Shown: in pieces, positions 60,549-63,283 of the stretch
Layout: every line of letters starts with the position of its first letter
Numbering within the stretch: position 1 is the stretch's first letter
DNA from: an uncultured Phascolarctobacterium sp.
GTDB taxonomy: Bacteria > Bacillota > Negativicutes > Acidaminococcales > Acidaminococcaceae
Direction: 5' to 3'
Assembly (NCBI GenBank): GCA_949285135.1
Contig: CASDXO010000002.1
Span: 62,001 to 126,000, forward strand
DNA length: 64,000 nucleotides
Position numbers and translations under genes: made by a program
Notes under the pieces: model-generated
Told to the model about the DNA's origin: nothing
The model's input: the letters and a program-made list of their open reading frames with translations, nothing else
Database searches by the model: none

Positions 60549-61463
60549 ATGAAAAAACTTTTCTTGGTTATGATCTATATCGTTGCTATGGCTATGATGA
60601 TAGTTGGCTGCAGCAGCGGTGAAAAAAAAGAAGCAAAACCTGCTGATGGCAAAAACATCACTATTGGTTTCTCTGTTTCTACTCAGAACAATCCCTTCTT
60701 CGTTACTTTGCGTAACGGTGTGGAAGCTAAAGCCAAAGAGCTTGGTGTTAACGTAAAAATCGTTGATGCGCAAAACGATCCTGCTAAACAGGCTAATGAT
60801 ATTGCCGATCTGCTGCAGCAAAATATCAGCGTCCTGCTGGTAAATCCTGTTGACTCTGCGGCAATCTCTACTTCTGTAAAAGCTGCCAACAAGGCTAATA
60901 TTCCTGTAATCTGCCTGGACCGCAGTGCTGATGAAGGCAAGGTAACTTCCCTGGTTGCTTCCGATAACGTAAAAGGCGGCGAAATGGCTGCTGAATACAT
61001 TGTTAAAAAACTGGGTGAAAAAGTAAAAGTTGCTGAACTGGAAGGTATCCCTGGTGCCAGCGCTTCTCGTGAACGCGGTGAAGGCTTCCATAAAATTGCT
61101 GATCAGAAACTGACTGTTGTTGCTAAACAGTCTGCTGATTTTGACAGAAGCAAGGGTCTGACCGTTGCAGAAAATATGCTGCAGGCAAATCCTGATATTC
61201 AGGCTATTTTTGCTCAGAATGACGAAATGGCTTTAGGCGCTATTGAAGCTGCCAAGAGCGCTAATAAGAAAGTATTTATCGTTGGCTTTGACGGTACTGA
61301 AGATGGCGTAAAAGCTGTTGAAAACGGTATCATGTCCGCTACTATCGCTCAACAACCTGATATTATGGGTCAACAGGGCGTAGAAGTTGCTGTAAAAGCA
61401 GCTAAAGGCGAAAAAGTTGATGCTAAAGTTTCTGCTCCGTTAAAACTTGTTGAAAAAAAATAA
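60549..61463 (+). CDS. rbsB: Ribose-binding lipoprotein
   Basis: Extracytoplasmic sugar-binding protein, 304 residues. The N-terminal signal (MKKLFLVMIYIVAMAMMIVG) ends in a lipobox IVGC so it is probably lipid-anchored in the outer face of the membrane. The body is a type I periplasmic-binding fold: VGFSVSTQNNPFF, the ribose-binding DRSADEG and QNDEMALGAIEA regions. It ends the operon, before a strong terminator. Confidence 0.94.
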   Translation: MKKLFLVMIYIVAMAMMIVGCSSGEKKEAKPADGKNITIGFSVSTQNNPFFVTLRNGVEAKAKELGVNVKIVDAQNDPAKQANDIADLLQQNISVLLVNPVDSAAISTSVKAANKANIPVICLDRSADEGKVTSLVASDNVKGGEMAAEYIVKKLGEKVKVAELEGIPGASASRERGEGFHKIADQKLTVVAKQSADFDRSKGLTVAENMLQANPDIQAIFAQNDEMALGAIEAAKSANKKVFIVGFDGTEDGVKAVENGIMSATIAQQPDIMGQQGVEVAVKAAKGEKVDAKVSAPLKLVEKK

Positions 61464-61604: not shown

Positions 61605-61632
61605 AAAAAAGCAGGCAACTATTGCTGCCTGC
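61605..61632 (-). terminator. Terminator after the OFA transporter
   Basis: Minus strand GCAGGCA / TGCCTGC (61632-61626 with 61617-61611) followed by TTTTTTAT (61610-61603). Confidence 0.85.
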
Positions 61633-61665
61633 CTGTAAAGCAAAATATGAAAATTTTATTATTTA

Positions 61666-62880
61666 TTACATACTTTTTTGGGTTTTAAGTTTTAAAATTA
61701 CGGCAATTAACAGACTGAGCACAAAACAGCCGGAGAAGAAATATAAAGTAATGGAATAACTGTTAGTCGTTTCTTTAATCCAGGATAACAGCAGAGGGCC
61801 GGCAATGCCAGCAAGACCCCAGGCAGTAAGGATACGGCCATGAATAGCGCTAAGCTGTTTGGTGCCGAAAAGATCACTTAAATAAGCAGGCATGCAGGAG
61901 AAACCGCCGCCATAACAGGTAATGATAAGGAAGATAAGCGCCTGGAACAGGAAGCTGTCGCTGACGCTTGCCAGAAGGTAAAAGGCTGCAATTTCGATTA
62001 AAAAGAACAGTATGTAAGTATTGCGTCTGCCGATGTAATCGGAAATAGTAGACCAGACAATGCGGCCAAGACCATTGAGCAGGCCAATGATACCAACCAT
62101 GGAAGCTGCGGCCAGCGGGGTCATATGGATGACTTCCTGTGCCATGGGAGATGCTACTGCCAGAAGCCCGATACCACAGGTGATGTTAGTAAAGAAAATC
62201 CACCATAAAGCATAAAACTGCCAGGTTTTCATAGCTTCGTTAACAGTGTACTGAGTCTGAGTAGCTGCTGGCACAGAAGCGAGTTTGGCTTTGGCTTCAG
62301 TAACAGGTGCTGCTTTAGGAGGTTCAAGATAAAGTGAAGAGGCTGTCATAACTATCATATAAATGCAGCCAAGAATAATAAAATTATTAATCAGACCGTA
62401 TTTGGCAATCAGCAGCTGCATAACGGGGCCGGCGATAAGGCTGGCGAAGCCGAAACCCATGATAGCCAGGCCTGTAGCAAGACCGCGGTTATTGGGAAAC
62501 CATTTTACGAGGGTAGAAACAGGAGTTATATAACCTGTACCAAGGCCGATGCCGCCGATAACGCCGTAAAAAAGATACATTAACGGCAGACTGTGCTGCG
62601 ACAAGGCAAAAGCGGTACCGAACATACCCAGTCCAAAGAAAACAGTAGAAACAAGTCCGCTGCGACGAGGACCGTGCTTTTCAACATAACTGCCCAAAAA
62701 GCCGGCGGATAAACCCAGAAACAAAATAGCCAGAGAAAAAGTCCAGGTAGTTTCCTGCAGGGTGAAACCCATGGCCTGCATAATCGGTTTGGTCAACACA
62801 CTCCAGGCATAAACACTGCCTATGCAGATATGGATTCCGATAGCGGAAAGAACGATGAGCCATTTGTTTTTTTTCATCAT
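61666..62880 (-). CDS. OFA-family MFS transporter (oxalate/formate-type)
   Basis: Major facilitator superfamily protein of the oxalate/formate antiporter family, 404 residues, about twelve hydrophobic segments. The start is the first of two adjacent ATGs (62880) with agaggt upstream; the longer frame runs into the leader RNA and is not used. Family markers are SVYAWSVLTKPIMQAMGF, the loop between TM2 and TM3 (GSYVEKHGPRRSG) and GTGYITPVSTLVKWFPNNRGLATG. Members move oxalate, formate, lactate or other small carboxylates. The upstream ZTP-type riboswitch points to a link with one-carbon (formyl-folate) status, making formate an attractive substrate; this is inference. Confidence 0.88.
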   Translation of the reverse strand: MMKKNKWLIVLSAIGIHICIGSVYAWSVLTKPIMQAMGFTLQETTWTFSLAILFLGLSAGFLGSYVEKHGPRRSGLVSTVFFGLGMFGTAFALSQHSLPLMYLFYGVIGGIGLGTGYITPVSTLVKWFPNNRGLATGLAIMGFGFASLIAGPVMQLLIAKYGLINNFIILGCIYMIVMTASSLYLEPPKAAPVTEAKAKLASVPAATQTQYTVNEAMKTWQFYALWWIFFTNITCGIGLLAVASPMAQEVIHMTPLAAASMVGIIGLLNGLGRIVWSTISDYIGRRNTYILFFLIEIAAFYLLASVSDSFLFQALIFLIITCYGGGFSCMPAYLSDLFGTKQLSAIHGRILTAWGLAGIAGPLLLSWIKETTNSYSITLYFFSGCFVLSLLIAVILKLKTQKSM

Positions 62881-62917
62881 CAAAACCTCTTTCTGTTCAT
62901 TGTTTTTGACCGGAAGA

Positions 62918-63016
62918 AAATAAAAACCATCCGGGTCAATAAGATTGCCCAGACGGTCGGCAGTGTTCATGGTGCAGTACATGTGGTCAATTCCACTTAT
63001 CCGTCAGTCCTGCATC
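62918..63016 (-). ncRNA. ZTP (pfl) riboswitch with overlapping terminator
   Basis: Read on the minus strand, the leader has GGACTGACGG (63008-62999), a GTGGAA/TTGACCAC hairpin (62996-62983) and then GCCGACCGTCTGGGCA (62961-62946), the highly conserved 3' part of ZTP riboswitches. The CCGTCTGGG block also pairs with CCCGGATGG (62935-62927) to make a terminator stem followed by TTTTTATTTT. Aptamer folding and the terminator are thus mutually exclusive, the expected expression platform: ZTP/ZMP binding would allow transcription of the OFA gene. Confidence 0.8.
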
Positions 63017-63038
63017 AGAATATTGAATTGTAATTCAT

Positions 63039-63066
63039 ATTATAAAGATTTTTAAGGATATGTCAA
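63039..63066 (-). promoter_or_regulatory. Promoter of the OFA transporter leader
   Basis: Minus strand TTGACA (63066-63061), 16 bases, TATAAT (63044-63039). The start point would fall just upstream of the riboswitch. Confidence 0.8.
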
Positions 63067-63159: not shown

Positions 63160-63212
63160 TAGTAGTAAGCCATGTATAGCATAGAAAAATAATATTGACA
63201 GAGAGTGAACGA

Positions 63213-63264
63213 AGTTCATGAAGGGGTACACCACCGCGGGTGTAGATTCTTCATGGACTTTTTT
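63213..63264 (+). ncRNA. Structured thiS leader ending in a terminator-like hairpin
   Basis: AGTTCATGAAG (63213-63223) pairs with CTTCATGGACT (63249-63259) and the inner TACACC / GGTGTA (63227-63232 with 63239-63244) pairs within it, followed by TTTTTT. It is not a TPP riboswitch (no CTGAGA or ACCTGA boxes). It may be an attenuator or a different regulatory RNA; the identity is unknown. Confidence 0.55.
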
Positions 63265-63283
63265 GTTTTCCGGAGGTAAAAAG

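Follow-up and report, generated by a model that had tools for sequence, protein, structure and literature searches.

ZTP signals a lack of 10-formyl-THF, and the known targets of its riboswitches are purine and formyl-THF genes (PMC2864571; PMC7266159). Why, then, would such a switch precede the gene for a monocarboxylate transporter, and what would that transporter move? Both questions are raised by a minus-strand locus in an uncultured Phascolarctobacterium sp., within the 64,000-nucleotide stretch of DNA that was analyzed as a whole (here called the window). An initial reading of this DNA made without database searches (the sequence-only reading) had proposed a ZTP (pfl) riboswitch in the leader of an oxalate/formate-type (OFA) transporter gene.

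A ZTP aptamer and an overlapping terminator in the transporter leader

The Rfam covariance model for ZMP-ZTP riboswitches (RF01750) matched positions 62940 to 63021 on the minus strand over its full length (model positions 1 to 86 of 86) with a score of 57.2 bits, relative to a gathering score of 39. The E value of this match was 1.2e-6 when the whole window was searched and 1.1e-8 when 601 bases were searched. The segments by which the motif had originally been recognized, GGACTGACGG, the GTGGAA..ACCAC hairpin, and GCCGACCGTCTGGGCA, are all present and fall within the model alignment. Twenty-seven aptamer columns are invariant across the window copy and 43 relatives, with all invariant positions kept, and P1 covaried over 44 relatives; 8 of the 16 predicted pairs showed double changes. 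The covariance-model score and P1 covariation bear out the proposed ZTP riboswitch, and judged by its sequence, the aptamer is an ordinary, standard member of this known riboswitch class. A predicted sigma-70 promoter at 63039 to 63066 on the same strand agrees with the consensus at 12 of 12 positions (TTGACA at 63066-63061, a 16-nt spacer, and TATAAT at 63044-63039), so that transcription would begin about 10 bases 5' of the aptamer.

A terminator hairpin, GACCGUCUGGG...CCCGGAUGGU, is predicted at 62925 to 62958 on the minus strand. It reuses the aptamer 3' arm, CCGUCUGGG, which alternatively pairs with CCCGGAUGG; UUUUUAUUUU comes next, and the U tract, TTTTTATTTTCTT, occupies 62914 to 62926 (minus strand). 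The calculated stability of the hairpin was -19.5 kcal/mol (z score, -5.87), a value equaled in 0 of 200 shuffles. When we folded growing transcripts, the P3 hairpin formed first and was supplanted by the terminator at a leader length of about 108 nt. By a strict test, the terminator was present in 58 of 68 related leaders. Because the terminator reuses an aptamer arm and has a U tract, the leader displays the anatomy of an ON switch, in which a ligand-held aptamer would block the terminator. The sequence-only reading had anticipated the pairing of this same segment into a terminator with a T tract, which was confirmed at 62925-62958 and is conserved in relatives. It had also anticipated the ON logic, which as predicted anatomy is supported by the covariance model, P1 covariation, and the conserved terminator. 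These analyses support a transcription-terminator expression platform with predicted ligand-ON logic. The interval from 62918 to 63066, to which the riboswitch had been assigned, takes in the promoter, the aptamer, and the terminator.

A second leader region in the vicinity belongs to divergent ThiS-like and ThiF-like genes. At window positions 63205 to 63265 on the plus strand, it contains an attenuator-like long hairpin followed by TTTTTT, for which an Rfam search returned no significant match.

The controlled gene encodes an SfMCT-like member of the OFA/MCT group

The gene predicted to be under control of the switch lies at 61666 to 62880 on the minus strand and encodes a 404-amino-acid MFS transporter of the OFA/MCT group; a probable Shine-Dalgarno sequence, AGAGG, was identified by eye at 62886 to 62890 (minus strand). 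Folding indicated a terminator-like hairpin 3' of the gene at 61610 to 61633 (minus strand), and the neighboring gene at 60549-61463 is convergent, so the transporter gene is probably transcribed alone. The protein matches PF07690 (MFS) and passes NF049980, the curated model for the SfMCT L-lactate transporter, with 407.4 bits versus a cutoff of 320. The nearest solved structure is likewise SfMCT (PDB 6g9x; E value, 1.6e-40). TIGR00890 and TIGR04259 were also matched, both under their curated cutoffs (159.7 versus 335 for TIGR04259).

Mapping onto solved structures indicated that the SfMCT carboxylate site is largely retained, with Tyr117, Asn269, Arg273, Tyr323, and Phe327 of the transporter as the equivalents of SfMCT Tyr119, Asn276, Arg280, Tyr331, and Phe335. 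The two proteins differ at SfMCT Leu28 and Leu145, which are Val23 and Phe143 in the transporter (Val and Phe clade-wide), and in the placement of the transporter gene under a ZTP switch. OxlT (TIGR04259; PDB 8hpj) belongs to the same superfamily group, and its Arg272 is retained as Arg273, whereas OxlT Lys355 is replaced by Trp354, Trp324 by Tyr, and Gln34 by Val. The Lys355-equivalent residue is Trp in 66 of 67 ZTP-linked homologues, with a gap in the remaining one. Roles have been described for OxlT Arg272 and Lys355, and OxlT cannot transport oxalate without Lys355 (PMC10070484), so its replacement makes oxalate an unlikely substrate here. The assignment to OFA in the sequence-only reading therefore stands for the broad family, but its oxalate/formate-type label was too specific for a protein that passes the SfMCT model, fails TIGR00890 and TIGR04259, and has lost Lys355. 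Lactate, pyruvate, propionate, and butyrate were the substrates examined in the SfMCT study, whose text contains no reference to formate (PMC6573034); the structure family thus neither supports nor excludes formate. A comparison of pocket residues between ZTP-linked and unlinked relatives revealed no difference and no substrate clue.

The switch-transporter pair is conserved in Negativicutes

Among named taxa, the window's genome (1.89 Mb) is nearest to Phascolarctobacterium and other Acidaminococcaceae. ZTP switches occur in it twice, at purH and at the transporter gene, and it has one full-length fhs gene. Searches of this genome for pyruvate formate-lyase (PFL) and for an FNT formate/nitrite channel found neither, and no oxalyl-CoA decarboxylase scored above the cutoff. 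The window copy resembles other RF01750 riboswitches in its full aptamer, the terminator over the 3' arm, the predicted ON response, and the purH target in its genome; it differs in having a monocarboxylate transporter as its target rather than a purine or formyl-THF synthesis enzyme. A literature search, with the primary ZTP riboswitch paper and its gene lists outside its scope, found no ZTP-controlled transporter of this type, and within the papers covered this transporter appears to be undescribed as a ZTP target.

ZTP switches occur in 57 of the 59 genomes of the window's family, where they control purH most often, the transporter gene next, and fhs and pfl in a few cases. At 25 family loci, the switch lies directly upstream of the transporter gene, with 47 to 133 nt between aptamer and start. 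We also compared the leaders of 80 named transporter relatives from a wide genome collection. The switch was directly upstream in 35 of 35 Negativicutes copies, including one weak match (L141; 31 bits), and in 0 of 45 non-Negativicutes relatives, nearly all of which are from Bacillales. Negativicutes with the pair include Megasphaera, Veillonella, Dialister, Selenomonas, Anaerovibrio, Megamonas, Pectinatus, Schwartzia, and others. When presence or absence of the switch was mapped onto the transporter tree, it required 4 changes compared to 17.7 with shuffled labels, and one of the 4 is an artifact because the L207 contig ends at the gene. This recurrence, the tree, and the terminators conserved among related leaders indicate that the pairing is old and conserved, apart from a small number of losses or unlinked paralogues.

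The two species of genus g2 without PFL have transporter copies (L103:774-1976 and L074:553-1770) that group with those of the Selenomonas/Veillonella type, so switch and gene may have been acquired together, although branch support is weak.

Distribution of the pair relative to PFL and FNT

Within the family (f1; 59 genomes), the ZTP-transporter pair was found in 25 genomes, PFL in 10, and full-length FNT in 14, and these were never found together. The same pattern was apparent within genera. PFL is present in seven species of genus g2, and the two species without it have the pair; FNT is present in 11 species of genus g18, and the three species without it have the pair. A family-level Fisher test gave a P value of 1e-8, which is naive in that it ignores relatedness, and a tree of fhs yielded three supported independent contrasts, of which two to three agree with the expectation and none goes against it; these are too few to test. 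The cutoff for full-length FNT (E value, 1e-40) was chosen after the data had been seen. A shorter FNT relative occurs in several g2 genomes, including both with the transporter pair (G003 and G006 carry one), and the g18 FNT protein that we checked (L212) falls under the curated FocA cutoff.

Across the class, PFL and the transporter occur together in 26 of 130 genomes, with no significant association (Fisher P = 0.07), and the transporter and an FNT match occur together in 11 genomes. We therefore rejected exclusivity as a general rule both for PFL and the transporter, which holds in the family, with three supported contrasts, but fails in the class, and for FNT and the transporter, which also fails in the class.

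Unlinked transporter relatives are located directly behind a SAICAR-synthetase-family gene at L193:3633-5666 and L194:3488-5484. They come from two genomes in which a ZTP switch controls PFL, and they present a purine link without a riboswitch at the transporter relative.

Proposed formate import and alternative roles

We propose that a build-up of ZMP/ZTP, a sign of a shortage of 10-formyl-THF, would block the terminator and turn the transporter gene on. The OFA/MCT-group monocarboxylate transporter would then most likely import formate, which Fhs (formate-THF ligase, encoded elsewhere in the genome) would turn into 10-formyl-THF, and this in turn would let PurH, whose gene is under the second ZTP switch, consume ZMP. 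We infer the ligand response, the direction of transport, and formate as the substrate. Formate is indicated by three indirect lines: the ZTP signal, the distribution of the pair relative to PFL and FNT within the family, which fits formate import for 10-formyl-THF synthesis, and the SAICAR-synthetase-family adjacency. The SfMCT residues that bind carboxylate (Arg, Asn, and Tyr) are also retained in the pocket; against formate, the curated model names L-lactate. Considering the few contrasts, the class-level co-occurrence, and the post hoc FNT cutoff, we place a ZTP ON switch governing an OFA/MCT carrier that imports formate for Fhs and PurH at only somewhat better than even odds (about 60%). 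The recurrence of the pair across the class hints, short of proof, that purine synthesis in these bacteria draws on imported formate. A class-wide formate-uptake arm of the ZTP regulon in Negativicutes, replacing PFL or FNT where these are missing, is more tentative, and we would put it slightly short of an even chance.

The ZTP ON switch might instead control movement of a different small monocarboxylate, such as lactate, acetate, or propionate, that feeds carbon or redox metabolism and not the formyl pool. This is a possibility to be taken seriously, if a rather unlikely one, as the best curated model and nearest solved structure are both SfMCT, the five site residues agree with its lactate site, and its tested substrates were lactate, pyruvate, propionate, and butyrate, with no mention of formate (PMC6573034). 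However, lactate import would yield no formate here because PFL is absent, ZTP switches mainly control purine and formyl-THF genes (PMC2864571), and the family pattern of the pair relative to PFL and FNT also argues against this role. Oxalate:formate antiport, with imported oxalate as the formate source, would accord with the lower-scoring TIGR00890 and TIGR04259 matches. These matches are below the curated cutoffs, the Lys355 of OxlT (PMC10070484) is Trp in this protein and in nearly all ZTP-linked homologues, and the genome has no oxalyl-CoA decarboxylase over the cutoff; on these grounds we rejected oxalate import, which we regard as highly improbable.

MCT-type carriers are reversible and proton-coupled, and the transporter could thus export a carboxylate such as formate or lactate during folate stress. 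We consider this improbable, since formate export would deepen the very deficit that the switch senses and the usual source of formate, PFL, is absent from the genome. It is scarcely conceivable that the match arose by chance or reflects a decayed, nonregulatory element, a reading refuted at the sequence level by the retention of all invariant aptamer positions, the compensatory P1 changes, the conserved terminator, and the conserved position of the motif across families.

The interest of this locus lies in the class-wide transporter target and not in the RNA; the pairing recurs in a class of gut and rumen bacteria. Formate import under ZTP control, if correct, would give a large and misnamed group of transporters a physiological substrate and would place nutrient uptake besides synthesis under a folate-stress alarmone. 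Cross-feeding of formate would then be expected to serve as a purine lifeline for gut bacteria that use succinate and lactate. The riboswitch offers a straightforward experimental route to the substrate.

Tandem ZTP aptamers

A review counts five tandem ZTP cases, four linked to THF metabolism and one to moeA (PMC9481103). The window copy has a single aptamer, unlike these two-aptamer riboswitches. Three transporter leaders outside the family, in genomes G075, G107, and G111, are likewise doubled, with two ZTP aptamers in tandem at L200:1066-1265, L201:1148-1351, and L202:1094-1304. Tandem ZTP aptamers were also observed at L203:1701-1952, upstream of a MoeA-like gene (L203:2100-3323), an association that corresponds to the unusual moeA link described in that review.
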